From: Anaerostipes hominis (ex Lee et al. 2021)
Lineage (GTDB): Bacteria; Bacillota; Clostridia; Lachnospirales; Lachnospiraceae
NCBI RefSeq assembly: GCF_002270485.1
Contig: NZ_NQOG01000023.1
Location: forward strand, 1 to 40,049
Direction: 5' to 3'
Length of the DNA stretch: 40,049 bases
Shown here: positions 20,284 through 34,518 of the stretch, in pieces
Layout of the letters: each line of letters opens with the position of its first letter
Numbering within the stretch: the first letter of the stretch is position 1
Notes under the pieces: generated by a model
Databases searched by the model: none
Told to the model about the DNA's origin: nothing
Seen by the model: only the letters and a program-made list of their open reading frames with translations
Position numbers and translations under genes: made by a program

Positions 20284-21384
20284 ATGGAGATCAGGTTATT
20301 AAACGAGGAAGATGACATCGATGCAGTCTGTGGTATCTATGCGGCCAGTTGGAAAAGTACATATAGAGGCATCATCCCTCAGGAGTTTCTGGATAACATT
20401 GATAAAGAAAAATGGCGTGAGGGAATTCAAAATTCTGAATTGATTTCATTAGTCATGATGAATGGTGAAAAGATGATCGGCACGGCCTCCTACTGTGCTT
20501 CCAGATTCATCAGTCTTAAGGGGTTTGGGGAAATCGTCTCGCTCTATTTGCTTCCGGATTACTATGGAAATGGATATGGCAGACAGCTTTTGCAGGCGGC
20601 GGTTGACGGACTGTCTGAGATGGGATTTTCAGAAAAAGTAAAGGAAGAAGCAAAGAGAAAATCAGATTTCAGGTGTGTCATCTGTCAGGAACCGTTTGTT
20701 GAAGTACATCATATCATTCCTCAGAATGAGGGAGATGAAGATACGATTGAGAATGCTGCGCCCCTTTGCTCCAGATGTCACGATCTATATGGAGACAACC
20801 CTGCAAAAAGAAAACAGATCCCTCAGATGAGAGACTATTGGTTTGAAGTCATGGAGAAGAGAAATAAAGAAGGTTTGGATGCGTTAGTACCGATCGCGTC
20901 CGATCCCGACAGAGTGAATGCCCTGCGGGACAAGGGGATAGCCATCCAGCATACTGTTTTTGCAGAGAGTAAAGGTATTAAGGAATTTATTCTTTTATTT
21001 ACGATTTCTTTCTTTTTTCTCACACAATACATTTCTATTTATCTTACAGCAAATTTCCATAACAGCAAATTCATAATGGATCAAAGGGCTGAGAAAAGCC
21101 CGCTTTTAGTAAACGCAGCTGCGGCAGGGGTCATTGGCCCGGCGACCGAGGAACTTTTATTCCGCAGATTTCTGTACAAAGGATTAAAATCGATGGGGAA
21201 AGAAAAGTCGTCTCTGATTTCCAGTGTTATTTTCGGGCTGTGTCACAGACATGTGATCCAGGGGATCTATGCAGCATTGTGGGGGAAAGAAGCATCACAG
21301 CTTAAAAGCACCTTTTTCAGCTCATATGATCAGCAATCTGCTGTCCTTTTTACCGATCCTTTGGATCAGCCTGAATCATTGTGA
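20284..21384 (+). CDS. Chimeric frame: truncated GNAT, HNH domain and CPBP protease remnant
   Basis: One open frame of 366 residues made of three unrelated pieces. Residues 1-118 are a GNAT N-terminus with VSLYLLPDYYGNGYGRQLLQ, ending before motif B. Residues about 119-192 are an HNH nuclease segment (C131, C134, HH142-143, C162, C165, H166). Residues about 229-335 are a CPBP-type membrane protease with EE289-290, R294 and a TM segment, then a frameshifted end. No natural protein of this order is known to me, and each piece is incomplete, so this is best read as remnants joined by deletions that happen to stay in frame. It begins at the base after the preceding stop codon. Confidence 0.7.
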   Translation: MEIRLLNEEDDIDAVCGIYAASWKSTYRGIIPQEFLDNIDKEKWREGIQNSELISLVMMNGEKMIGTASYCASRFISLKGFGEIVSLYLLPDYYGNGYGRQLLQAAVDGLSEMGFSEKVKEEAKRKSDFRCVICQEPFVEVHHIIPQNEGDEDTIENAAPLCSRCHDLYGDNPAKRKQIPQMRDYWFEVMEKRNKEGLDALVPIASDPDRVNALRDKGIAIQHTVFAESKGIKEFILLFTISFFFLTQYISIYLTANFHNSKFIMDQRAEKSPLLVNAAAAGVIGPATEELLFRRFLYKGLKSMGKEKSSLISSVIFGLCHRHVIQGIYAALWGKEASQLKSTFFSSYDQQSAVLFTDPLDQPESL

Positions 21385-21439: not shown

Positions 21440-23218
21440 TCACTTCTTTAACATTCGCCAAAGCGTACTCCGGCTGATTCCAAGCCTCTTAGCGGCTCGT
21501 TCTTTATTTCCGGCTTCCTCCGTAAGCACCATATGGATGATCTGGTCATTGATCTCATTTAGTGTGCCGGTAAGATCCAGACCGGAAATATCAGCAGAAG
21601 GATCGGCGGAGGGTTCGTTGTCCAAAATTTCTTTTACGTTTTCATAAGTAATATATGGAGTGCGGGTTATAACCACCAATTCTTTGATTATATGGTGCAA
21701 TTGATCGAGGTTGTTAGGCCATGAAAAAGCAGTCATCAAATCCATAGCTTCCGCCTCAAAGCCGATAATCTGCTTGCCGGTAGCGACATTCATACGATGA
21801 ATATAAAGCGTGGCAATGCTCGATAGATCCTGAATGCGATCTCGAAGCGGCAAAAGCTTCAAAGTCATGCAGGATAATTTGTTCTCGAGATAATTTCGAC
21901 ATATTTCCGTCTGATCCTTTTCTGAGGAATTCAGGATCAGCGAAAAAATCAGCCGGTTCCTTCTGGCGAGCTCTGAATTATCAATATAAGAAAAAAGCTT
22001 GTCCAATTGATTTTTCGAAAGCGCTCCCGGATTTTTGATATAGATGTTTGTATTCACATTTGCGAATGGCGAATCTGAATTATTGATCAGGGCATTCCAT
22101 TTTCGTTCCCCCATAAGTTCACAATTGATGATATATAAAGGGGAAGAATTCCCGGAGCTGTTGGAATATAAAAGCTTTGCAACTTTATCTTTCCCTGTTC
22201 CGGATTCTCCTATAATCAGTACCGGCTGTGTGCTCTTTGCATACGCTTCGATAATATCGGCCGTACGTCCCACTTGGTGAGAGCCGTTGTATTCATCGGC
22301 GAAATCTTCTGAGTTCGAATCCAAATGATTGTAAATAGTAATTACTGAGTCTTCTTCGGAAAAAACGGCATGTTTCTGTTGGATGGTTATTGCTGTATAT
22401 TTCTGGTCTTCATAGAATAAATGCCGGTTTGTAAGGATGAAGATTTTATCGCGGATCTGTCTGGTAACTGTCTGACCCGAAACTTTCAAAAAAGCCCGAA
22501 GATAAGTCTGTACAAGATTCATAAGGACTGTATTGCTGTCGTTATTTGGAAGACTGGAAAACCATAAGGCTCCGGCTGGATTAAAAATCAGAAATTCCCG
22601 GTCTTCATTGGTCAGAAGAGCCTGAAACAGATCTTTCTGTTTGTGAACATGAGCAGAAGACGCCACGAGTTTGACGGCTTCATCAATTGCAGAAGTGATA
22701 CTTTCGCTTCCGGAAGAAAGAAGGATAGAATTCATCCCCAGCTTCCTGGCTGCATTTAAACCTGTCATATCACAAAGAGCCAATGTACAGCCGTTCTGCT
22801 GCGCCTTCCTGATTGCCGGCAGAGCATCCGATTCGTTGGTAAACGTTACAATATCAATATCATACTGCAGTAGGTCGCAGAGCACTTTGGCGCAGTTTGT
22901 GATCGAAGAAAATCCGGCGATTATAAACTTGCCGGAATAGCTTTCCACAAGTTTAATTGTGCGGAGCACATCATACACGGAAATCGGGATATCGATTACC
23001 GGGAGCTCGACGTTAGAACGTATCAATTCGGCAGTTCCGCCTCTTGAAATAATAACGTCATAATTATTATGTGCCAGTTCGAGGGCGATTTTTTTGCCGT
23101 TATCCAAATCGCCTGTCTGTACCGTCATGCGGATATCATCTCTTGTCTGTGCGATTGCAGATATGGCATCCGCCATTCCTTCATAAGGAGCTACTGCAAG
23201 TATCTTGGTTTTCTGCAT
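21440..23218 (-). CDS. PrpR_N-domain regulator with degenerate AAA+ domain
   Basis: Regulator of 592 residues. Residues 1-190 are a propionate-catabolism-activator (PrpR_N) sensor with YDVIISRGGTAELIR. A linking region (195-310) is followed by an AAA+ domain with Walker A GESGTGKD (337-344) and WPNNLDQL at 500-507. A Fis-type helix-turn-helix (570-590, ERAAKRLGISRSTLWRML) closes the protein. The GAFTGA loop needed to contact sigma-54 is not seen where expected (about 370-400), and Walker B is poor. It is divergent from the acid-sugar operon at 23453 and is its likely regulator. The start at 23218 follows GGGGAAA. It probably does not act as a classical sigma-54 activator. Confidence 0.85.
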   Translation of the reverse strand: MQKTKILAVAPYEGMADAISAIAQTRDDIRMTVQTGDLDNGKKIALELAHNNYDVIISRGGTAELIRSNVELPVIDIPISVYDVLRTIKLVESYSGKFIIAGFSSITNCAKVLCDLLQYDIDIVTFTNESDALPAIRKAQQNGCTLALCDMTGLNAARKLGMNSILLSSGSESITSAIDEAVKLVASSAHVHKQKDLFQALLTNEDREFLIFNPAGALWFSSLPNNDSNTVLMNLVQTYLRAFLKVSGQTVTRQIRDKIFILTNRHLFYEDQKYTAITIQQKHAVFSEEDSVITIYNHLDSNSEDFADEYNGSHQVGRTADIIEAYAKSTQPVLIIGESGTGKDKVAKLLYSNSSGNSSPLYIINCELMGERKWNALINNSDSPFANVNTNIYIKNPGALSKNQLDKLFSYIDNSELARRNRLIFSLILNSSEKDQTEICRNYLENKLSCMTLKLLPLRDRIQDLSSIATLYIHRMNVATGKQIIGFEAEAMDLMTAFSWPNNLDQLHHIIKELVVITRTPYITYENVKEILDNEPSADPSADISGLDLTGTLNEINDQIIHMVLTEEAGNKERAAKRLGISRSTLWRMLKK

Positions 23219-23246
23219 ATGGATTTCCCCTTTGTAAAAAATGAAT

Positions 23247-23349
23247 TTTTATCGTTGAGATATTCGCTTTCATATAGATTTATTATATACTTGAACGTAT
23301 CAAAATGCAACAAAAATTAAGCTGGATGTTTCAAAATAAAACGATAAAA
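23247..23349. promoter_or_regulatory. Repeats in the divergent control region of the acid-sugar operon
   Basis: TCAAAATgcAAC (23300-23311) recurs as TCAAAATaaAAC (23331-23342), exactly 31 bases or three helix turns apart. In addition TTTTATCGTT (23247-23256) is the exact inverse of AACGATAAAA (23340-23349). No good sigma-A promoter or -24/-12 element is seen for the operon at 23453, so it may need an activator bound here. Confidence 0.4.
23282..23310 (-). promoter_or_regulatory. Promoter of the PrpR_N regulator gene
   Basis: Minus-strand TTGCAT (23305-23310) and consensus TATAAT (23282-23287) with exactly 17 bases between. The leader is about 60 bases. The repeat TCAAAATGCAAC overlaps the -35 box, which suggests autoregulation. 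Confidence 0.65.
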
Positions 23350-23452
23350 TGAAATTGTGCAATTGAATAACGAGGTTTTAAGAAGTAATATGTTAAACAA
23401 GAAAAGCAAAGAAACACAAAATATTTCAAAACGAATCAAAGGAGGAAAGAAA

Positions 23453-24607
23453 ATGAGTTATCAGATTAAAATTCCGTCATATATCTGCGGAGGGGAGGGA
23501 TGCATTGAAAATGTAGCTGCAATCATCGAAAAAGAACATGCAAAGAAGATTATTGTATTTACAGATAAAGGCATCAGACTTACAGGACTTTTGGATATAC
23601 TGACGAAAATACTTCATAAAACAACGGCCGAATATCAAGTATTTGACAATTTGACTCCGGAACCGGCATATCAGGATGTAGAAAGAGTCATGGATGAGGT
23701 CGCGTGCTACAATGGTGATTTTATTATCGCGATTGGCGGCGGAAGCGTTATGGATGCGGCAAAGCTCTGCAGTATATTAAAAGACGCTCCTTATACGATA
23801 AAAGATCTTCTGAGAGATCCTGCAATTGCTGAGAAACAGATTAAGACCCTGATGATTCCTACTACTTGCGGAACCGGATCGGAGGCAACATGCAACGCTA
23901 TCGTAGCCATTCCGGAAGAGCAGTCAAAGAAAGGAATTGTGAACGATAACATGATTCCGGATTACGTATTTCTGGATCCGCAGATGATCAGAAAGCTTCC
24001 AAAATCTATCATTGCAGCAACGGGCGTGGATGCGCTTGCCCATGTAGTAGAGTGCTTTACCTCAAAAAAAGCGACTTCGTTTTCCGATACGTATGCAATG
24101 GCCGGTGCAAAACTGATCTTTCATAATATCAGAGAAGCTTACAATGATGCAGATCATATGAAAGCAAAGGGTAATATGATGCTTGGCGCGTTCTATGGCG
24201 GAGTCGCTATCACAGGAAGCGGTACAACGGCTGTACATGCGCTGTCATATCCATTGGGCGGAAAATACCATATTGCGCATGGCGTATCCAATGCAATCCT
24301 TTTTGCACATGTAATGGAATTCAACAAAGACGCCTGCAGGGAAAGACTTGCGGAATTGTGCGACGGAGTGTTCCCGGAGCTTTTCGAAAAAAATGTGGAT
24401 GAAAAGGCGGACTATATGATCGAACAGATTGTAGACATTGTAAGAGTGACAAACATTCCAACAGACCTGAATGAATTCGGAGTAAAAATGGAAGACCTTG
24501 ATTTCCTTGTAAAGGCAGGAAGCGATCAAAAAAGACTTTTGGTAAATAACATGAAAGAATTATCACTGGATGATATCAGGGGTATTTACCTGAGAGTTCT
24601 GAAATAA
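23453..24607 (+). CDS. Iron-containing (group III) alcohol dehydrogenase
   Basis: NAD(P)-dependent metal alcohol dehydrogenase of 384 residues, normal length. Nucleotide loop GGGS at 95-98, family motif TTCGTGSEAT near 137-146, and metal ligands D193, H197, H262 and H276. It would reduce an aldehyde or oxidise an alcohol. AAAGGAGG lies upstream of ATG 23453; a longer frame from 23357 lacks this. First gene of the operon that holds acid-sugar kinase, PdxA and aldolase, so it may reduce the aldehyde released by the aldolase or oxidise a hydroxy acid before it enters the pathway. The substrate is open. Confidence 0.9.
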   Translation: MSYQIKIPSYICGGEGCIENVAAIIEKEHAKKIIVFTDKGIRLTGLLDILTKILHKTTAEYQVFDNLTPEPAYQDVERVMDEVACYNGDFIIAIGGGSVMDAAKLCSILKDAPYTIKDLLRDPAIAEKQIKTLMIPTTCGTGSEATCNAIVAIPEEQSKKGIVNDNMIPDYVFLDPQMIRKLPKSIIAATGVDALAHVVECFTSKKATSFSDTYAMAGAKLIFHNIREAYNDADHMKAKGNMMLGAFYGGVAITGSGTTAVHALSYPLGGKYHIAHGVSNAILFAHVMEFNKDACRERLAELCDGVFPELFEKNVDEKADYMIEQIVDIVRVTNIPTDLNEFGVKMEDLDFLVKAGSDQKRLLVNNMKELSLDDIRGIYLRVLK

Positions 24608-24635
24608 AACAATTATCAAAGAAAGGGCAGGAGAA

Positions 24636-25676
24636 ATGGAAAAGAAACCAATTATCGGAATTACAATGGGAGATCCCTCGGGAAATGGATCTGAAATCTC
24701 CGTAAAAGCACTTTCAGACCCGGCTGTGTACGAAAGATGTAAGCCAATCATTATTGGAGATGCGAATTGCATGAAAAACGCAGTGGAGTTTCTTGGGAAA
24801 GACAATGAAATCCGGATCCATGCTGTAGAAAATGTAAAAGATGCGGTATTCCAACACGGAACGATCGACGTCTATGATATGAAACTGGTCGATATGAAAA
24901 AGCATATATACGGTAAAGTTTCAAAAATGTGTGGGGAAGCCGCATTCCAGTATGTTGTGAAGGTGATCGAGCTTGCAATGAAAAACGAGATTGATGCAAC
25001 TGTAACTAATGCGATCTGCAAAGAAGCCATTAACATGGCAGGGCATCATTACTCCGGACATACAGAGATTTACGCAGATTATACAGATACCGGCAAATAC
25101 ACCATGATGCTCGCCCATGGCGATCTGAGAGTTGTACATGTGTCCACGCATGTTTCTCTTCGTCAGGCATGCGAGAGGGTAAAAAAAGAACGCGTGCTGG
25201 AGTGCATCAGAATTGCCAACGATGCATGTAAAGCGATCAGAATTAAAGAGCCGAAGATTGGCGTGGCAGGTCTGAATCCGCACTGCGGGGAGAACGGAAT
25301 GTTTGGTACGGAAGAGATTGAAGAGATTCAGCCGGCTATTGATGCGGCGCTGGAAGAAGGGATTCATATTCCGGAGAAGAAGCCGACGCCTCCGGATTCC
25401 ATTTTCTCTAAAGCAATCGGGGGCTGGTATGATATTGTCGTTGCAATGTATCACGATCAGGGACATATACCGCTTAAGGTAGAAGGATTCAAATACAATA
25501 AGGAGCAAAAGAAATGGGACGCCGTATCCGGCGTCAATGTAACGCTTGGCATTCCAATCATACGCGTATCTGTAGATCATGGAACCGGATTTGATCTTGC
25601 AGGAACAGGAAAATGTAACGAATTAAGCCTTGTAAATTCTATTGATTATGCGATCCGCCTTGCAGAAAACAAATAA
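24636..25676 (+). CDS. PdxA-family 4-phospho-acid dehydrogenase (PdxA2-like)
   Basis: Member of the 4-hydroxythreonine-4-phosphate dehydrogenase family, 346 residues. Family signatures: GITMGDPSGNG at the N-terminus, SGHTE (140-144), the metal histidines H172 (STHVSL), H216 (NPHCGENG) and H273 (MYHDQGH). Next to a DUF1537 kinase it is much more likely PdxA2, which oxidises and decarboxylates 4-phospho-threonate or -erythronate to dihydroxyacetone phosphate and CO2, than the vitamin B6 enzyme; no other pdx genes are near. GCAGGAG precedes the ATG. It lies 28 bases after the alcohol dehydrogenase and 18 before the kinase. Confidence 0.9.
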   Translation: MEKKPIIGITMGDPSGNGSEISVKALSDPAVYERCKPIIIGDANCMKNAVEFLGKDNEIRIHAVENVKDAVFQHGTIDVYDMKLVDMKKHIYGKVSKMCGEAAFQYVVKVIELAMKNEIDATVTNAICKEAINMAGHHYSGHTEIYADYTDTGKYTMMLAHGDLRVVHVSTHVSLRQACERVKKERVLECIRIANDACKAIRIKEPKIGVAGLNPHCGENGMFGTEEIEEIQPAIDAALEEGIHIPEKKPTPPDSIFSKAIGGWYDIVVAMYHDQGHIPLKVEGFKYNKEQKKWDAVSGVNVTLGIPIIRVSVDHGTGFDLAGTGKCNELSLVNSIDYAIRLAENK

Positions 25677-25694
25677 TAGCGGGAGGAAAACGAC

Positions 25695-27884
25695 GTGGTA
25701 AAACTGTTGATTATAGCCGATGATTTTACTGGTGCTTTGGATACAGGAATCCAGTTTAAAAAACGTGGCATCAGCACACAGGTTTTCACAAAAACAAAGT
25801 TGGAGAATAGTGAAATCAGACCAGACACAGAGGTTCTTGTGATCGACAGTGAATCAAGGCCAATGCAGAAAGAAGACGCGTATCTGAAAGTAAAAAAGAT
25901 TACAGAGTGGGCGATTGCCCGCGAAGTACAGATTATTTTCAAAAAAACAGATTCTGCGCTCAGGGGAAACATAGGGGCCGAGGTAAAAGCTGTCGCCGAT
26001 GCAGCGGGAAACGGCAAAGTGTTCTTCCTTCCCGGTTATCCGGAAATTCACAGAGTTACAAAGAACGGGACTCATTATATAGACGGTGAATTGCTGGAAA
26101 ACAGTGTATTTGGAAAGGATCCATTTGAACCGGTAAATATGTCGTACATACCGGATATCATCAAAAAAGAGAGCGATGTTGCCGTAGAGGTATTAAAGAG
26201 AAGCGAGAAGATTCCTGAACTGGCAAAAGACCAACCGGAGATTATCGTATGTGATACGGTCAGTACAGAAGACATTGATAACCGACTGGACGAGCTGATT
26301 GAGAAGAACGCTCTCGGGCTGTTGGCGGGGTGCGCAGGACTGGCAGATCGTCTGGTAGAAAAAATATCTTTCAACCGGCAAGGAGAGATGGCATTTCACA
26401 AGACTGACGGGATGTATGTAGCATGCGGAAGTCTGAACAAGATTACAGAACAGCAGGTTTCGTATGCGGAAAAGAACGGCGGATTTACAAGAATCCATCT
26501 GACAATGCATCAGAAACTGATGCCGGAATATTATGGGACGGCGCAGGGAAGATCATTTACACGCGAAATAGCGGGACTCTGCCAGCGCAGGAAGAAAGTG
26601 ATTGTTGATACATTTGATTCGGATGACAGCAAAGAACAATTTCTGAAAGACCACAAGATAGAACAGGAATCTGTCAGATTCAGAATCTCAGATTCGCATG
26701 GCTGCATTGTCAACGAACTGGTAAACCAGGGGCTGGATCTTACGATCCTGATGACGGGCGGGGATACGCTGATGGGATATATGAAGCAAATCGGATGTAC
26801 GCAGATCGAACCAATATGCGAAATTGAACAAGGCGTTGTTGTATCAAAAATTAAATGCGGAGGCCATTCCATACAGGTAATATCAAAATCAGGTGGATTC
26901 GGAACAGTCGATATCCTGTGCCGAATCGCAGAGAAAGTGCTTCATAAAAATTCAAAATTGAAAGGAGAACGCATCATGAAAAAAGTTGAACTGAAGGGAA
27001 TTATCACACCAATTTTAACACCGATGAAAGCGGATGAAAGTATGAATACAGAGGAACTCCGCGCACAGATTGAACGTCTGATTGACGGCGGTGTGCATGG
27101 TATTTTCCCGTTTGGAACCAACGGGGAAGGTTATATCTTAAGCGAGAATGAGAAGGTTGAAGTGCTTGAAGCAACGATCGATCAGGTAAAAGGACGTGTA
27201 CCTGTATATGCAGGCTCCGGATGCATTTCCACAGCAGATACCATCCGTATGAGCAGGAAAGCGGAGGAGCTTGGGGCAGACGTGCTTTCCATTATTACGC
27301 CAAGTTTTGCGGTCGCATCTCAGAAAGAACTGTATGACCATTATGTAGAAGTTGCAAAACATGTGGACACGCCGATTGTACTTTATAACATTCCGGCACG
27401 CACAGGCAACAAACTTCTTCCGCAGACGGTCGCCAGGCTCGCCAGAGACGTAGATATTATTGTCGGGGCAAAGGATTCCAGCGGGGACTGGGAGAACCTG
27501 AAAGCATACATTCATCAGACTCAGGATCTTGACAAAGATTTCTTTGTATTATCAGGAAATGATTCCCTGATCCTTCCGGCATTAAAAGAAGGGGGAACTG
27601 GCGGGATCGCCGGATGCTCCAATGTATATCCTCATGTACTTTCTTCTATTTACAATCTTTTCAAAGAAGGGAAACTGGAAGATGCGCAGGCGGCGCAGGA
27701 TTCTATCGCAAGTTTCCGCGCAGTGTTCAAATATGGGAATCCGAACACAGTAGTTAAGAAGGCCGTTGCGATGCTTGGATATCCGGTAGGAGAATGCAGA
27801 AGGCCATTCAACTATCTGTGCGATGAAGGCGTAGAAGCGCTTAAGAGGGTTTTAAAAGAGAACGCTGATAAGGGTATGAACTAA
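25695..27884 (+). CDS. Four-carbon acid sugar kinase (DUF1537) fused in frame to DapA-family aldolase
   Basis: One continuous frame of 729 residues from GTG 25695 (GGGAGG upstream). Residues 1 to about 420 are a DUF1537 kinase: DDFTGALD (9-16), KKTDSALRG (83-91) and a C-terminal ATP site with MTGGDT and KSGGFG. This family phosphorylates D-threonate, D-erythronate and similar acids at the terminal hydroxyl. From residue 428 (M, base 26976) a complete DapA/NAL-family aldolase follows. No stop codon separates them, and both halves have full family length. Such kinases are usually separate proteins. A real bifunctional enzyme, partial internal initiation, or loss of a stop codon are all possible. 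Confidence 0.85.
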   Translation: MVKLLIIADDFTGALDTGIQFKKRGISTQVFTKTKLENSEIRPDTEVLVIDSESRPMQKEDAYLKVKKITEWAIAREVQIIFKKTDSALRGNIGAEVKAVADAAGNGKVFFLPGYPEIHRVTKNGTHYIDGELLENSVFGKDPFEPVNMSYIPDIIKKESDVAVEVLKRSEKIPELAKDQPEIIVCDTVSTEDIDNRLDELIEKNALGLLAGCAGLADRLVEKISFNRQGEMAFHKTDGMYVACGSLNKITEQQVSYAEKNGGFTRIHLTMHQKLMPEYYGTAQGRSFTREIAGLCQRRKKVIVDTFDSDDSKEQFLKDHKIEQESVRFRISDSHGCIVNELVNQGLDLTILMTGGDTLMGYMKQIGCTQIEPICEIEQGVVVSKIKCGGHSIQVISKSGGFGTVDILCRIAEKVLHKNSKLKGERIMKKVELKGIITPILTPMKADESMNTEELRAQIERLIDGGVHGIFPFGTNGEGYILSENEKVEVLEATIDQVKGRVPVYAGSGCISTADTIRMSRKAEELGADVLSIITPSFAVASQKELYDHYVEVAKHVDTPIVLYNIPARTGNKLLPQTVARLARDVDIIVGAKDSSGDWENLKAYIHQTQDLDKDFFVLSGNDSLILPALKEGGTGGIAGCSNVYPHVLSSIYNLFKEGKLEDAQAAQDSIASFRAVFKYGNPNTVVKKAVAMLGYPVGECRRPFNYLCDEGVEALKRVLKENADKGMN
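26976..27884 (+). CDS. DapA/N-acetylneuraminate-lyase family aldolase (internal start)
   Basis: Full-length 302-residue Schiff-base aldolase starting at an internal ATG preceded by AAAGGAG at eight bases, a strong ribosome site inside the long fused frame. Catalytic elements: GTNGEG (47-52, here Asn in place of the usual second Thr), Y137 in VLYNIPARTG and the Schiff-base lysine K166 in GAKDSSGD. The family condenses or cleaves pyruvate with an aldehyde, as in 4-hydroxy-tetrahydrodipicolinate synthase, KDG aldolase and related enzymes. In this catabolic operon retro-aldol cleavage of a 2-keto-3-deoxy or 4-hydroxy-2-keto acid is more likely than lysine synthesis. It may be made both alone and as the C-terminal half of the kinase fusion. 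Confidence 0.85.
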   Translation: MKKVELKGIITPILTPMKADESMNTEELRAQIERLIDGGVHGIFPFGTNGEGYILSENEKVEVLEATIDQVKGRVPVYAGSGCISTADTIRMSRKAEELGADVLSIITPSFAVASQKELYDHYVEVAKHVDTPIVLYNIPARTGNKLLPQTVARLARDVDIIVGAKDSSGDWENLKAYIHQTQDLDKDFFVLSGNDSLILPALKEGGTGGIAGCSNVYPHVLSSIYNLFKEGKLEDAQAAQDSIASFRAVFKYGNPNTVVKKAVAMLGYPVGECRRPFNYLCDEGVEALKRVLKENADKGMN

Positions 27885-27916
27885 ATAAAAGATTAGAAAG
27901 AAGCGAGGAATAGAAG

Positions 27917-28906
27917 ATGAAATTTGTAATGACACAGGCCGTGTGCCCGGAAGGGCTTCAGATGCTGGACGGAATCGCGGATGTTTATGTTGCAGATAAT
28001 CAGGATCCAAACAATTATCTGGATGAAATGAAGAATGCAGACGCTCTGATCGTAAGGATTGCAAAATGTGACGGACATGCCATCGAGAACAGCCCGAATC
28101 TGAAGGTTATCGGGCGTACAGGCGTAGGATATGATTCCGTAGATGTGAAGACAGCTACAGCGCATGGGATCCCTGTAGTTATCACACCGGGAGCCAATAA
28201 CAGAAGCGTTGCAGAGCATGCGGTGGCGATGATGTTCGCACTTTCCAAAAATCTGGTGGAAGCTCAGACGGAAATGTGTAAAGGCAACTGGGAAATCCGT
28301 GGAGCTAAAAAAGCATTTGAGCTGGAAGGTAAGAACGTTGGGATTCTTGGACTTGGGGCAATCGGACGTGAAACTGCAAAGATCTGTAAAGGATGTGGAA
28401 TGAAAATAGCAGCCTATGATCCGTTTTTGTCAAAAGAACAGGTAGAAGGTTACGGCGCAGAGTACTATGAGAACTATGAAGAGCTTTTGAAAATCAGTGA
28501 CGTAGTATCCATTCATGTGCCTCTCACCGAGGAAACCAGAAATATGATTTCCAGAAAGCAGCTCTCAGAAATGAAGAAAACGGCACTGATCATTAACTGC
28601 AGCCGCGGCGGAATCATCAACGAAGCAGATCTGACAGAGGCATTGAAAGCAGGTGAAATTGCAGGGGCAGCAACGGACGTATTCTGCAATGAACCTCCAA
28701 AGACAGATGATCCGCTTTTGAATTGCCCAAATCTGATTGTAAGCCCTCATTCGGCGGCACAGACAAGAGAAGCGGTCATTAAAATGGCTCAAATGTGTGT
28801 GAAAGGCTGTCTGGCAGTAGCAGAGGGAAAGAAATGGCCATTCGTAGCAGACAGGTCGGTATATGATCATCCGAAGTGGAAAGACACGGAGTATGCAGAA
28901 GTATAA
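27917..28906 (+). CDS. D-2-hydroxyacid dehydrogenase (phosphoglycerate dehydrogenase-like)
   Basis: NAD-dependent 2-hydroxyacid dehydrogenase of 329 residues without the ACT regulatory domain of serine-pathway SerA. Dinucleotide loop GLGAIG (145-150) with D168 at the end of beta-2, which favours NAD over NADP. Catalytic R230 (NCSRGG), E259 and H278 (SPHSAAQ). It would oxidise a 2-hydroxy acid to the keto acid, or the reverse. GCGAGGA precedes the ATG. It follows the aldolase by 32 bases. In this operon it could form the 2-keto acid that the aldolase cleaves. Confidence 0.9.
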   Translation: MKFVMTQAVCPEGLQMLDGIADVYVADNQDPNNYLDEMKNADALIVRIAKCDGHAIENSPNLKVIGRTGVGYDSVDVKTATAHGIPVVITPGANNRSVAEHAVAMMFALSKNLVEAQTEMCKGNWEIRGAKKAFELEGKNVGILGLGAIGRETAKICKGCGMKIAAYDPFLSKEQVEGYGAEYYENYEELLKISDVVSIHVPLTEETRNMISRKQLSEMKKTALIINCSRGGIINEADLTEALKAGEIAGAATDVFCNEPPKTDDPLLNCPNLIVSPHSAAQTREAVIKMAQMCVKGCLAVAEGKKWPFVADRSVYDHPKWKDTEYAEV

Positions 28907-28994
28907 GAAGCCATAATAAAGGGCTGAACTCTTATATTTGAGTGTATAAAGTTAAGTTACAAGAAAAACTATGTGGGGAAACGGAGAAAAAACT

Positions 28995-30323
28995 ATGAGT
29001 TCAAGTATTATAGCAATTATAATTGCAGCAATTACAATTGTACTGTTCATGTGGAATAAATTGCCAATGAGCGTTGTGGCTATGGGAAGTTCCGTAGCAA
29101 TGGGAATTCTGATTCCGCAGATGGAACTTTCGGAAGTATATGCCGGATTCAGCGCTCCTGGCTGGGCAATGGTCGTCGGGATGTGTATCGTAAGCGCGGC
29201 GCTCTTTGAGACCGGCATGGCTCAGAAAATCGGCGACAGAATTGGAAATTCATTTTTAGCAAAGACGGAACGCAGATTTATCGTAACAGCAAGCGCTGTA
29301 TGCTGTTTGATGTCAGCGTTTATGAGCAATAACGGAACAGTAGCTATCTGGATGCCTCTGATCGCTGTTGTAGCGGCTGGATCAAACGGACGGATCCGAT
29401 CTAAGATGGTTATTTTCCCGGCGGGAACTGCAGCAATCATTGGGGGGGCATGTACGCTGGTCGGGTCTACATCACAGCTTGCGGCGAACGCGGTGCTTCA
29501 GGGATATGACGGATATAAAGATGGACTTGGAATGTTTGATATGACAAAAATCATGCTTCCGGCAGCTATCGTGCAGGTTGTCTTCTGGGGGACGATCGGA
29601 TATACTTTGCTGAAGAAAGTTCTGAAACCGGAAAGTCCGGACTTCAATGTGGGAAACATGTATGCAGATGCCCCGGCAGTTGAAGAAAAAAGCACAAATG
29701 ATCCGGCGGATGGCAAGAAAGGAGCTATTTCAGTATTTACAATGCTTCTGTGCATTTTCTTATTCGTGGCGAGTGGATTTGAACCATTTAAAAGCCATTT
29801 TACAATCGGCGTTATCGGTATGTTAGGTGCAGTTATCGTTCTTGGAACAAAATGTATTCCGGTCAAGAAAGCTTATGAAGAGCTTCCTTGGGATGTACTG
29901 ATTACAATCGGCGGTATCGGCGGACTTGGAGCGGGACTTGATAAATCAGGCGGCGGAGCTTTGATCGCAAACGCAGTACTGAATCTTTTCGGAGGGAAAA
30001 ACGCTTCCGTAGTAGTTCTTACAATTGTAATTGCAGTTTTAACAAGCGTACTGACGAATTTTATGTCGAACAATGCAACGGCGGCTATGATCAGCCCAAT
30101 TGCTATCGCAATGGCGCTTGGTCTTGGAATCAGTCCGGTTCCGTGGGTTATCGTAATTGCGGCGTGTTCGAATCTGGCAATTGCAACATCTTACGGAACA
30201 GCTGTCAACATGCAGATTTTACCGGCCGGATATAAATTCTCCGACTTTGTCAAGATTGGCGGGCCATTGCTGATCATATTGATCGCAGTAGTTACTGTAA
30301 GTTCAGTAGCATTCCTCTTCTAA
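28995..30323 (+). CDS. SLC13/DASS-like (ion transporter superfamily) permease
   Basis: Membrane permease of 442 residues with about 11-12 hydrophobic segments in two inverted halves. Each half has the substrate/sodium loop SNN-T: MSNNGTVAIWMP (SNN 111-113) and FMSNNATAAMISP (SNN 358-360). A hydrophilic loop (about 210-243) separates the halves. The superfamily (DASS, CitMHS, ArsB) imports carboxylates with sodium or protons. ATG 28995 follows CGGAG; an ATG at 28971 is possible but poorer. As the last gene of the operon it most likely imports the acid substrate degraded by the enzymes before it. Confidence 0.88.
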   Translation: MSSSIIAIIIAAITIVLFMWNKLPMSVVAMGSSVAMGILIPQMELSEVYAGFSAPGWAMVVGMCIVSAALFETGMAQKIGDRIGNSFLAKTERRFIVTASAVCCLMSAFMSNNGTVAIWMPLIAVVAAGSNGRIRSKMVIFPAGTAAIIGGACTLVGSTSQLAANAVLQGYDGYKDGLGMFDMTKIMLPAAIVQVVFWGTIGYTLLKKVLKPESPDFNVGNMYADAPAVEEKSTNDPADGKKGAISVFTMLLCIFLFVASGFEPFKSHFTIGVIGMLGAVIVLGTKCIPVKKAYEELPWDVLITIGGIGGLGAGLDKSGGGALIANAVLNLFGGKNASVVVLTIVIAVLTSVLTNFMSNNATAAMISPIAIAMALGLGISPVPWVIVIAACSNLAIATSYGTAVNMQILPAGYKFSDFVKIGGPLLIILIAVVTVSSVAFLF

Positions 30324-30499: not shown

Positions 30500-30529
30500 A
30501 TGGAATTTATATCAGGAAGGAACAGTAAA

Positions 30530-31039
30530 ATGTCAATAAAATCAGATTATAAGGATTATGAGGAGCATCGGAACAGAATTGCAGGTAAAAAGACAGGAAA
30601 ATTTTTTATTAATCAGGAATTGCGCTATGTAAAACCATTTCAAATTTATGGAAATTTATACTATGTTGGTGATAGCTGGGTCTGCGGGCATATTGTGGAC
30701 ACGGGAGAAGGTCTTCTTATGTTTGATGCTGGGAATTGTGGAGCGCAGGCAGTGCTGATACAGTCAATTTGGGAAATGGGTTTTAATCCGGCAGACGTAA
30801 AATGGATTATTTTATCGCATGGCCATGTTGATCACTTTGGCGCTGTAAATTTTTTTAAAAACATGTTCGGAACCAAAATCTACATGGGTGAACCGGATGT
30901 AAAAATGTTTCGGGAACATCCGGTTACGCCGATGCCAAGTCTTGTGAATGGATATGCCGAGATCACGGAAGAATATTTGCAGAAGATGAAGGAGCAAGAG
31001 TATTTGAGAAATTCGATCAAGAGAGATGTCTCGGAATAG
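30530..31039 (+). CDS. Short MBL-fold metallo-hydrolase, probably 3'-truncated
   Basis: Protein of 169 residues with the first half of a metallo-beta-lactamase fold: GNLYYVGDSWVCGHIVDTGE, LLMFDAGN, then the metal motif SHGHVDH near residues 96-102. The expected third metal histidine in a PGHTxG motif and the remaining half of the fold are absent; family members are usually 250-300 residues. From about residue 145 the sequence turns into a charged helix (EEYLQKMKEQEYLRNSIK) not typical of the fold. AGGAAGGAAC precedes ATG 30530. It is probably a truncated, inactive gene, although the frame itself is clean. Confidence 0.65.
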   Translation: MSIKSDYKDYEEHRNRIAGKKTGKFFINQELRYVKPFQIYGNLYYVGDSWVCGHIVDTGEGLLMFDAGNCGAQAVLIQSIWEMGFNPADVKWIILSHGHVDHFGAVNFFKNMFGTKIYMGEPDVKMFREHPVTPMPSLVNGYAEITEEYLQKMKEQEYLRNSIKRDVSE

Positions 31040-32336: not shown

Positions 32337-32372
32337 GGGAGTAAATCGTACTGTGATTTACTCCCTTATTTT
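32337..32372 (+). terminator. Rho-independent terminator after the GGDEF remnant
   Basis: Perfect 11-base stem GGGAGTAAATC (32337-32347) with GATTTACTCCC (32355-32365), 7-base loop, followed by TTATTTT. Confidence 0.85.
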
Positions 32373-34518
32373 AATGCTTTCTTTTGCTCAGAAGAGAAAG
32401 AGGAAATCGTTTCCTGAAAAGGGGAAGGGACTTTAACCCCACGGGTTCTGGTTTCCATCTGGCATAGAGCGTGTAATGCTCCGTGCTTCCGTGGGGGATC
32501 ATATTTATCTGTTTTCCGCCGAATGGATCGTCATACCATCCGAGGAAGGCAAGGCCCGGAAGTTCTTCCGGAGGATTCAGGATGAGATCAGGTGAATCTG
32601 TCGTATAAAAAACTGGGTTGGTGTTTGAGGATTCCAACAGGTTCTCATAGCGTATCCTGAAACGGACGGGAGCCAGCAGGACAAAAGTTCGGTCAGGATT
32701 TAGACGAAATTCCCAGCCGTTAAACCTGTGGGATGGCATCCGAAATTTTTCGGCGTCCGAAGGCTGAAGACCGAAATATTCGGATAAAGGGGCACAGATG
32801 ACGATTGGATTTCCTTCCTTGTTTGGAGAAATATATTCGGAATTCTCAAGACGGATACATGCATTGGGATGGAGGGTGTTCTGCAGGTAGAGATGAGTAT
32901 CAGCATCTTTGAGGAAAAAGCCGTCATATAAATTTGGTCCTTCCTCAAGAATAAGAGAACTGCCGCATTCAAGAGAGATACCGACTCCTGCTTTCTTGGC
33001 AAGGTTTTGTGAAAGCCGTGTGGTGCCTCTTAAACTTACAATATTGCCAAAGCCATGGGACAGGATACCGCCGCCGCACCCAAAACGAGCCGTATTGTCC
33101 TCGATGATACAGTCATATAGGTTTGCATCCGCAGCGCCTTCTTTGGAATCAAGAAAGATTCCTCCGCCTGATCCTGCCTGATTTTTGATAAACTCTGACG
33201 ATGTCAGGGAGAGATTTTTTGCTTTAGATGAAGACTCAGACAGAAAGGCCAGCCCGCCGCCGGATTTTTTTGCGGTGTTTCTGGAAAATGAAGTCTGTGA
33301 CACATTGACAATGCCGCTGCCGGATGAACTCATGGCAATACCGCCGCCGTCAGAAGAAGAAATATTTTCAAAAATCCTGCTGTCTGTAAGGTGAAAGGAA
33401 AATTCTCCGCTGCCTGCACTAAAAACAATGCCTCCGCCGCAGGAAGCCGCCCGGTTTCCCTTTATATCAGAATTCATCAGTGCCAGGCGGACAGATTTTT
33501 TTGAAGAACGATTAGTGAGTGAAATGCCTCCGCCCTGTCCATCGGCTTTGTTTTTGGAAATAGAACATTCATTTACTGTAACTGAGGCACCTGTTTGGGA
33601 AACCAGGCAGAGACCTCCCCCGTTTTCTTTTGCACTGTTTTCAGAGAGGACAGAGTCCTTTTCGATATCCAGCTGATCTTCCTCACTGCAGCCGAAGAAG
33701 TAAATACCTCCCCCGTAAGCAGAGGCATTTCCGGAGATCCTCACATTACCTGACACTGTGAGGGAAGAAGGTATTTCAGCATCTTCACGGAAGCCTGAGA
33801 AATTGATGCCGCCACCGCATCCCAGGGCAATGTTATCAGTTATGGCTGACGAGTCAGAAACGGTGAGGATGCTTCCCGCCCGCTTTTCAAAAGAGCGAAG
33901 ATAGATCCCGGCGCCGTGGGCCGCAGTATTGTGGGTGATCAAAGCGCGTCCCAGGATTGAAAGTTTATCATCGGGATGTTTGACAGCGGCCATAACAGCT
34001 CCTCCGCAGAGTCTGGAGGAGCAACCCGAAATCTGCGAATCTTCGGTCATCAGGAAATTGTTTGGAAGGGAAGCGATGCCTGAAAAATAAACGCCTCCCC
34101 CTTCTGTATAGGAATGGTTGTTTCGGAGAACTGTACCGTGTTTCAGAATGAGCGTACCGCCCGAAATCAATATTAAGGAACGGTTCATAGGATCTCTGCC
34201 TGAATGGAGTTCCTTTTGACCGTCTAACACAATGTTTTGAAGGGTGAGGCTGCCTCCTTCTAAAACATGAAACATAGAAGAGGGAAAGGAAGCATCCTTA
34301 TAAAGGGAGACCGGACATTCATCGGAACAGCCAGTGAGTGTCAGGGAACAGCGGACAGTGATCTGTTTGGAGACTGTGAAATCTGAGACTGCCTGAATGT
34401 GAGTTTCTTTGGAAGCCACAGCGTTCAGAAGCTCAGTTTGATTGGAGACTGGAGTCAAAATATCACCTGCTTTTTTCAGTTCAATCTTATATTTAGTATA
34501 TGCAGAAATAACAGGCAA
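32371..34518 (-). CDS. Pmp-like beta-helix repeat protein with InlB-type C-terminal repeat
   Basis: Protein of up to 715 residues starting at a TTG. From about residue 140 to 480 there are some 13 repeats of 25-35 residues built around GGGI/GGGL-x-hydrophobic, each preceded by an N-x-A or similar turn (for example SGNASAYGGGIYFFG). This is the pattern of polymorphic-membrane-protein-like parallel beta-helices. Near the C-terminus GWYDDPFGG and TLYARWKPE form a Listeria/Bacteroides (Flg_new, InlB B-type) repeat. No signal peptide or LPXTG anchor is visible. A truncated surface gene faces away from its 5' end at 34517, so the true N-terminus may be lost. Adhesion is the usual guess for such proteins. 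Confidence 0.72.
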   Translation of the reverse strand: MPVISAYTKYKIELKKAGDILTPVSNQTELLNAVASKETHIQAVSDFTVSKQITVRCSLTLTGCSDECPVSLYKDASFPSSMFHVLEGGSLTLQNIVLDGQKELHSGRDPMNRSLILISGGTLILKHGTVLRNNHSYTEGGGVYFSGIASLPNNFLMTEDSQISGCSSRLCGGAVMAAVKHPDDKLSILGRALITHNTAAHGAGIYLRSFEKRAGSILTVSDSSAITDNIALGCGGGINFSGFREDAEIPSSLTVSGNVRISGNASAYGGGIYFFGCSEEDQLDIEKDSVLSENSAKENGGGLCLVSQTGASVTVNECSISKNKADGQGGGISLTNRSSKKSVRLALMNSDIKGNRAASCGGGIVFSAGSGEFSFHLTDSRIFENISSSDGGGIAMSSSGSGIVNVSQTSFSRNTAKKSGGGLAFLSESSSKAKNLSLTSSEFIKNQAGSGGGIFLDSKEGAADANLYDCIIEDNTARFGCGGGILSHGFGNIVSLRGTTRLSQNLAKKAGVGISLECGSSLILEEGPNLYDGFFLKDADTHLYLQNTLHPNACIRLENSEYISPNKEGNPIVICAPLSEYFGLQPSDAEKFRMPSHRFNGWEFRLNPDRTFVLLAPVRFRIRYENLLESSNTNPVFYTTDSPDLILNPPEELPGLAFLGWYDDPFGGKQINMIPHGSTEHYTLYARWKPEPVGLKSLPLFRKRFPLSLLSKRKH

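Follow-up and report, generated by a model that had tools for sequence, protein, structure and literature searches.

What does an operon degrade when its tetronate kinase and PdxA family dehydrogenase are accompanied by an aldolase and two further dehydrogenases? This question is raised by a 40,049-nucleotide stretch of Anaerostipes hominis contig NZ_NQOG01000023.1 (the window; host genome of 3.3 Mb in 85 contigs). Here five plus-strand frames encode an iron-containing alcohol dehydrogenase (Fe-ADH), a PdxA family dehydrogenase, a DUF1537 kinase joined to a DapA-superfamily aldolase, a D-2-hydroxyacid dehydrogenase (HADH) and an SLC13-like permease, divergent from a minus-strand regulator with a PrpR_N domain. 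This set of six frames, as listed in an earlier note on the same DNA, is borne out by the open reading frames and by Pfam matches. Kinases of the DUF1537 family reportedly take part in a D-threonate pathway, described by Zhang et al. in PNAS in 2016, in which DtnK acts together with PdxA2. We propose that the window operon specifies a catabolic route for a seven-carbon 2-keto-3-deoxy diacid (a heptulosarate), with core steps running from the aldolase to PdxA. We give this proposal about an even chance of being right, and we infer each of its reactions and substrates from gene content, conserved residues and stereochemistry worked out by hand. The earlier note had allowed that the gene set might already be assigned to a known substrate; no such assignment was found in the open-licence papers searched, and print beyond these may differ.

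A conserved core of four enzymes

A contig scan of the named genomes yielded 94 relatives, and the 80 loci that best matched the window aldolase were kept. The window proteins and recurrent neighbours were then mapped onto these loci and orthologues counted by score thresholds. As best matches to one aldolase the 80 loci are mutually related, so that the Fisher values given below overstate independence. The aldolase is present in all 80 by construction, and it is accompanied by Fe-ADH in 77, PdxA in 75, the kinase in 72 and the regulator in 64. The four enzymes occur together in 70/80 loci, and together with the regulator in 61/80, a co-occurrence far beyond chance. HADH (18/80) and the window's permease type (4/80) are optional, such that of the conserved set which the earlier note had proposed to search for, the kinase, aldolase and PdxA stand in the core, together with Fe-ADH, and HADH and the permease do not. 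Ten loci are incomplete: a nearby contig end truncates seven of them (L044, L073, L081, L092, L094, L105 and L107), L098 retains a PdxA fragment only, and L108 and L112 are missing genes. The hosts include Lacrimispora, Extibacter, Anaerobium, Caloramator, Proteiniclasticum, Faecalibacterium, Oscillibacter and two streptococci. Within the window's own family (299 genomes) the aldolase is found in 26 at an E-value of 1e-80 or better, and a DUF1537 kinase match (E 0.001) occurs in 26/26 of these genomes as against 46/273 of the others. The other searched genome of the window's genus (n=1) gave neither a kinase match at E 0.001 nor an aldolase match at E 1e-80.

Identity to the window protein is highest for the aldolase (66-91%, median 74, 84 sequences), followed by PdxA (62-87%, median 70, 73 sequences), Fe-ADH (48-88%, median 53, 73 sequences) and the kinase (34-76%, median 39, 72 sequences). 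That the aldolase is the best conserved enzyme fits a protein that sees the defining substrate of the pathway. These observations bear on a first rival explanation, namely that this is an ordinary D-threonate/D-erythronate operon, in which the aldolase, Fe-ADH and HADH have side activities (e.g. as sinks of reducing power) or serve separate substrates. Such a reading is favored by the best-scoring model of the kinase, which is that of D-threonate kinase, by the proximity of PdxA to the structure 6e85, and by the fact that a D-threonate kinase and a 4-phosphate dehydrogenase, with an added permease, suffice for Escherichia coli to use D-threonate, according to one report (PMC10079672). It also gains from the 29 family genomes with the next-best kinases, among which the aldolase is present in 23 and has no match at E 1e-80 in six. 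In five of these six (L025, L026, L027, L029 and L030) PdxA adjoins the kinase in a short stretch, and in the sixth (L006) the kinase is accompanied by both PdxA and Fe-ADH. These six kinase-PdxA pairs are possibly plain tetronate operons. However, in the 80 loci Fe-ADH and the aldolase are as constant as the kinase and PdxA, and the tightest constraint of all would be surprising in a side enzyme. Hence, we consider the ordinary tetronate operon quite unlikely as an account of the module, and the suggestion of the earlier note that the operon reaches beyond plain D-threonate or D-erythronate is supported.

The aldolase and its predicted products

The aldolase part of the joined frame (26976-27884, plus strand; DHDPS domain, 239 bits) was aligned with its counterparts from the 80 named loci and four family genomes, rows below 400 bits being excluded (n=85; positions numbered from residue 431 of the joined frame). 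The Schiff-base Lys163, Tyr134, Arg139, Thr45, Asn46 and Phe108 are identical in 85/85 sequences, and two of the excluded low-scoring rows (L033, 284 bits; a second copy in L036, 371 bits) retain the Asn, Phe and Arg. Arg139 corresponds to the R138-type arginine of DapA, which binds the carboxylate of aspartate semialdehyde, itself a C4 semialdehyde acid. Phe108 occupies the position of the catalytic Tyr107 of DapA, which is replaced by Phe in all 85 sequences. The window protein therefore shares with the pyruvate aldolases of the DapA superfamily the family, the Schiff-base lysine and the tyrosine, and with DapA itself the arginine of the C4-semialdehyde pocket. In contrast to 4-hydroxy-tetrahydrodipicolinate synthase, N-acetylneuraminate lyase and the 2-keto-3-deoxy acid aldolases, it displays Phe at the Tyr107 position, Asn46 and a KDSSG motif, and unlike other members of the superfamily the module aldolases nearly always lie beside a tetronate kinase and PdxA. 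A role in lysine biosynthesis was set aside on the Phe108/KDSSG signature and on the presence in the same genome of a DapA-like paralog with the standard TT/YY/KEASG pattern (TPYY kept); a second paralog there has a different pattern.

These features suggest that the aldolase probably releases pyruvate and an aldehyde, and the invariant DapA-type arginine speaks for a carboxylated aldehyde product. A second rival explanation holds instead that the aldolase splits another 2-keto-3-deoxy acid (C5, C6 or C8), that Fe-ADH reduces an aldehyde lacking a terminal carboxylate, such as glycolaldehyde, lactaldehyde or arabinose, to an alcohol, and that the kinase and PdxA act on an independent tetronate of the same dietary origin. 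The acid in question could derive from an aldarate via a galactarate-type dehydratase, and the closest NCBIfam model of Fe-ADH is in fact lactaldehyde reductase (247 bits, cut-off 523). Moreover, L112 clusters the aldolase with a gene of the galactarate/altronate dehydratase family (TIGR03248, 312 bits, cut-off 731) without kinase or PdxA, and because of this pairing aldolases related to that of the window may take other keto acids. On the other hand, the dehydratase-family gene is found in just 3/80 loci, the arginine argues for a carboxylated aldehyde, and the almost invariable linkage of the four enzymes points to a single pathway, leading us to view this second reading as unlikely. The L112 cluster (L112:13060-18387) comprises an amidohydrolase, HADH, a LarA-type protein of group 22, the dehydratase-family gene and a second aldolase.

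A proposed linear route from a heptulosarate to triose phosphate

For Fe-ADH (23453-24607, plus strand; PF00465/PF25137) the most likely start is ATG 23453, which follows a GGAGG, rather than GTG 23357. Its residues D194, H198, H263 and H277, which we take to be the metal ligands, are conserved in at least 95% of 74 rows, and it probably reduces the aldehyde released by the aldolase. The kinase part (25695-26950, plus strand, end approximate; SBD_N PF07005, 169 bits; NBD_C PF17042, 58 bits) contains the motifs KKTDSALRGN and TGGDT, and scores best with the NCBIfam model for D-threonate kinase (202 bits, as against 93 bits with that for 3-oxo-tetronate kinase), in both cases under the cut-offs. 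The best solved relatives of PdxA (24636-25676, plus strand; PF04166, 332 bits) are 4jqp (271 bits), 2hi1, titled "dehydrogenase 2" (257 bits), and 6e85, titled "D-threonate 4-phosphate dehydrogenase" (250 bits), with 1ps7 and 1ptm at about 151 bits; a vitamin B6 role for this protein was set aside on these closest relatives and on the operon context.

The proposed route would then proceed in five steps. 1) The acid would enter by SLC13/CitMHS, TRAP or TctABC carriers and would be brought to its 2-keto form in one of two ways. In a first version of the module (version A) a sialidase-fold enzyme, in many loci accompanied by a small VOC-like protein, would free the 2-keto form. In a second version (version B), the type found in the window, HADH would oxidize a 2-hydroxy acid to the 2-keto acid, with a LarA-type epimerase contributing in some loci. 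2) The aldolase would split the diacid, giving pyruvate and threuronate, a C4 semialdehyde acid (OHC-CHOH-CHOH-COOH). 3) Fe-ADH would reduce threuronate with NADH to D-threonate. 4) The DUF1537 kinase would convert D-threonate with ATP to D-threonate 4-phosphate. 5) PdxA would oxidize and decarboxylate this with NAD to dihydroxyacetone phosphate (DHAP) and CO2. As the NADH spent in the third step would be regained in the fifth, the net reaction of version A would be acid + ATP to pyruvate + DHAP + CO2, i.e. the route is predicted to be linear and redox-neutral. The earlier note had the aldolase yield pyruvate and an aldehyde that Fe-ADH reduces, which our comparisons support as probable, with the kinase and PdxA handling the four-carbon part. 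We keep the assignment of these last two enzymes to a C4 acid, but not their placement side by side with the aldehyde branch: on the simplest reading the aldehyde would be the C4 semialdehyde acid, and its reduction product the very tetronate consumed by the kinase and PdxA, the two being one molecule.

The route would extend the known D-threonate pathway upstream in a new way. As in the DtnK-PdxA2 system, a kinase and a PdxA protein of the same families lie side by side, and the presumed end products are DHAP and CO2 in both. In contrast to that system, those of the module go together with a DapA-type aldolase and Fe-ADH, with optional HADH/LarA or sialidase-fold/VOC companions and with a PrpR_N regulator, and both window proteins miss the curated cut-offs for the D-threonate enzymes. 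A third rival explanation reverses the order of events: the kinase would act first on a longer acid, PdxA would oxidize the product, and the aldolase would then cleave a phosphorylated keto acid. The gene order Fe-ADH, PdxA, kinase, aldolase of the window type is compatible with this, and the sequences of the kinase and PdxA families would in principle set no C4 limit. DapA-type aldolases, however, as a rule take unphosphorylated keto acids, and the window PdxA appears to resemble PdxA2. Further, the DUF1537 kinases characterized so far act on C4 acids (PMC10971088). We accordingly regard phosphorylation ahead of cleavage as very improbable.

Several observations count against the heptulosarate route and temper our estimate of it. 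Activity is known for no member of the module. The kinase falls well short of the D-threonate kinase model NF047819 (202 bits, cut-off 450) and its closest solved relatives are titled merely "Uncharacterized protein". PdxA likewise misses the D-threonate 4-phosphate dehydrogenase model NF002891 (299 bits, cut-off 583) and passes the general pdxA model TIGR00557 (315.5 bits, cut-off 290.35). Similarly, the aldolase, measured on the joined frame, passes the general dapA model TIGR00674 (212.9 bits, cut-off 206.15), and its best solved relative is a DapA (165 bits). As these general models are passed, family scores alone do not exclude lysine or vitamin B6 roles. Two loci also depart from the core: L112 has the aldolase and Fe-ADH and lacks the kinase and PdxA within 18.9 kb, and L108 has the aldolase and HADH and lacks the other three core genes, its contig ending shortly after the LarA-type gene. 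Finally, neither a sialidase-fold nor a VOC gene lies beside the window operon.

Two versions of the module

The two versions are distinguished by their companion genes. A sialidase-fold protein (BNR_2) is encoded in 52/80 loci, and it is nearly exclusive with HADH: both are present in one locus (L111), the former alone in 51, the latter alone in 17, and 11 loci have neither (Fisher p 3e-9, a nominal value given that the loci are related; a partial sialidase-fold piece of 146 bits at the contig edge of L094 was excluded from the counts). Such near exclusivity is as would be expected of alternative entries to one intermediate. The structural model of the sialidase-fold protein (pLDDT 86.8) retrieved in Foldseek searches the structure 6mrv as its best match (E 1.7e-18, TMq 0.72), and the matches are of the GH33 sialidase type: sialidases, neuraminidases or Nan proteins make up 47 of the 50 listed rows, and the remaining three are 4j9t, titled a designed metalloprotein, and two chains of 5hx0 (of unknown function). 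The alignment of these proteins shows invariant Arg, Tyr and acidic residues at many positions, and identity to the listed solved sialidases is 13-20%. In version A the pyruvate aldolase has a sialidase-fold protein as its neighbor, a feature shared with systems of GH33 sialidases and with the degradation of rhamnogalacturonan II (RG-II) by Bacteroides, reportedly described by Ndeh et al. in 2017. Unlike GH33 sialidases, these proteins have no clear signal peptide in 12 N-termini inspected by eye.

The small VOC-like protein, with a sub-cut-off match to Pfam Glyoxalase_4 alone, occurs in 37/80 loci, 35 of which also have the sialidase-fold gene. Homologs of it gave 24 matches in 80 Lachnospiraceae genomes, 21 of them within frames of 320-381 aa, and the three such frames that were scanned all start with a KDPG/KHG aldolase domain. 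Thus, the companions of version A appear to point to ulosonic (2-keto-3-deoxy) acids.

In version B, HADH (27917-28906, plus strand in the window; PF02826/PF00389) is joined by a LarA-type gene in ten loci; all ten loci with this gene have HADH. The best model for five of five scanned LarA-type proteins is the NCBIfam "nickel pincer cofactor-dependent isomerase, group 22"; four lie above its cut-off and one, from an imprecisely cut stretch, just under (377.6 versus 400 bits). No substrate for this group is named in the available parts of two papers on LarA (PMC7583248, PMC11770544). Between HADH and the LarA-type gene, six version B loci (L072, L077, L081, L095, L100 and L110) encode a protein of about 240 aa, which in L112 is found elsewhere in the cluster; the L112 copy has no Pfam or NCBIfam match. 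The carriers recognized vary from locus to locus (CitMHS, TRAP-TAXI, TRAP-DctPM and TctABC), all belonging to carboxylate-type families. That of the window (about 28995-30323, plus strand; CitMHS/Na_sulph_symp) matches CitMHS with 166 bits and falls below the cut-off of the DASS model TIGR00785 (122 versus 198.6 bits). Judging from its N-terminus it probably starts at the Met at 28995 rather than at 28971, the first possible start, which would leave a gap of 88 bases upstream. Esterase-like proteins also recur beside the module (L065, L086, L101, L105, L106, L107, L109 and L110; the L065 copy has a weak match to polyhydroxybutyrate depolymerase) and possibly remove ester groups from the substrate.

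Dha as a candidate substrate

To our knowledge, 3-deoxy-D-lyxo-heptulosarate (Dha), a constituent of RG-II, is the only ulosonic acid with seven carbons and two carboxylates. When the Fischer projection is worked through by hand, the D-lyxo configuration at C4-C6 makes C5 and C6 a D-threo pair, and reduction at C4 gives D-threonate. Cleavage and reduction of C4-C7 of Dha would hence furnish D-threonate, the substrate of the nearest characterized kinase and dehydrogenase families. We tentatively suggest that Dha is the substrate of the module, being cleaved to pyruvate and D-threuronate, and the latter carried on through D-threonate to DHAP, with two interchangeable entries, although we rate this specific identification as rather less probable than not. 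Kdo (3-deoxy-D-manno-octulosonate) was set lower as a candidate: its aldol cleavage yields D-arabinose, which is not an acid. According to a review (PMC12168206), RG-II is the only place in plants where Dha occurs, and its structure is related to that of sialic acid. No catabolic pathway or published fate of Dha was found in the open-licence papers searched.

The distribution of pectinases is consistent with this suggestion to a limited degree. Glycoside hydrolase family 28 (GH28) pectinases occur in 12/26 aldolase-bearing genomes of the window family and in 59/273 others (p 0.008), and the xylanase family GH10 in 2/26 and 39/273 (p 0.55). Yet the RG-II-linked family GH106 is not clearly enriched (4/26 versus 18/273, p 0.11), and when the four weakest aldolases (275-341 bits) are left out the GH28 counts become 9/22 and 62/277 (p 0.07), a weaker result that slightly lowered our confidence in Dha. 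The GH28 link is thus weak and may reflect genome size. The window genome itself yields neither a GH28 nor a GH106 match at the thresholds applied, which would cast its host as a scavenger of acids already released. In addition, we know of no natural occurrence of 3-deoxy-heptarate, the acid on which HADH would act in version B.

The regulator

The regulator (21440-23218, minus strand) combines PrpR_N (PF06506, 174 bits) with an AAA+-like domain (PF14532) and a Fis-type helix-turn-helix (PF02954), an architecture shared with PrpR-type sigma-54 activators. In contrast to these, the module regulators lack the GAFTGA motif and have an unusual Walker B region. No GAFTGA-like motif was seen in any of the 62 aligned regulators (rows of at least 200 bits, the window included), a Walker-A-like pattern is present in 55/62, and in the 25 rows shown the Walker B region is altered from its usual form. 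The lack of the GAFTGA motif argues that the regulator is probably not a sigma-54 activator, and the PrpR_N regulators of the module possibly form a sigma-54-independent branch. The window genome has three RpoN-type matches, and a scan for -24/-12 promoter patterns on the plus strand of 23101-23500 gave no match. Scans for sigma-70 promoters and terminators were at chance level (16 versus 17.7 expected and 6 versus 6.5, respectively). An assignment of the operon to a sigma-54 PrpR regulon was rejected, as the regulator lacks GAFTGA and two sigma-54 papers carry no module terms: pdxA, dihydrodipicolinate, DUF1537 and threonate are absent from the main text, as far as available, of both a survey of sigma-54 in Clostridiales (PMC6615313) and a paper on SigL of Clostridium difficile (PMC9130780).

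The joined kinase-aldolase frame

The kinase and aldolase of the window are encoded in a true open frame of 729 aa (25695-27884, plus strand; SBD_N and NBD_C of DUF1537 followed by DHDPS), as the earlier note had reported. The frame retains, between its two parts, a Shine-Dalgarno-like AAAGGAG (26961-26967) ahead of ATG 26976. The nearest relatives examined (L034-L044, the full-length loci on named contigs, and L115 from the closest family genome) have two separate genes in 12/12 cases. In 11 of these the kinase stop codon precedes the aldolase start, and in L044 the kinase ends a few bases past the aldolase start in a different, overlapping frame. Given these separate genes, the joined frame would stem either from the loss of a stop codon at this one locus or from a fault in the assembly. 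While the fusion is real as an open frame, it looks incidental, possibly a peculiarity of the assembly or strain, and the joining was accordingly rejected as a functional novelty. The aldolase may still be made alone from the internal start. Another one-off joining in frame, of a kinase to Fe-ADH, is seen in an 818-aa frame of L024 (L024:295-2748, minus strand).

Flanking frames

On the regulator side of the operon, a 366-aa frame (20284-21384) combines by eye a GNAT acetyltransferase-like beginning with an HNH motif and a CPBP-like final part, and is possibly a chimera of gene remnants. Beyond the permease lie a truncated-looking frame of 179 aa (30500-31039) that covers the first half of a metallo-beta-lactamase fold domain, and a repetitive Gly/Ser-rich frame of 715 aa (32371-34518, minus strand) which by eye resembles parallel beta-helix surface proteins.

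Implications

If Dha is indeed the substrate, the route described here would be the first known to us for this sugar acid. The enzymes that free the sugars of RG-II are known, and a pathway for Dha would close a gap in the use of pectin. It would provide a substrate for a group of DapA-type aldolases distributed across Lachnospiraceae, Oscillospiraceae, rumen Clostridia and a few streptococci, and would explain the frequent pairing of tetronate kinase and PdxA genes with a pyruvate aldolase. It would likewise suggest a substrate for the sialidase-like proteins of version A and for the group 22 nickel-pincer epimerase of version B.

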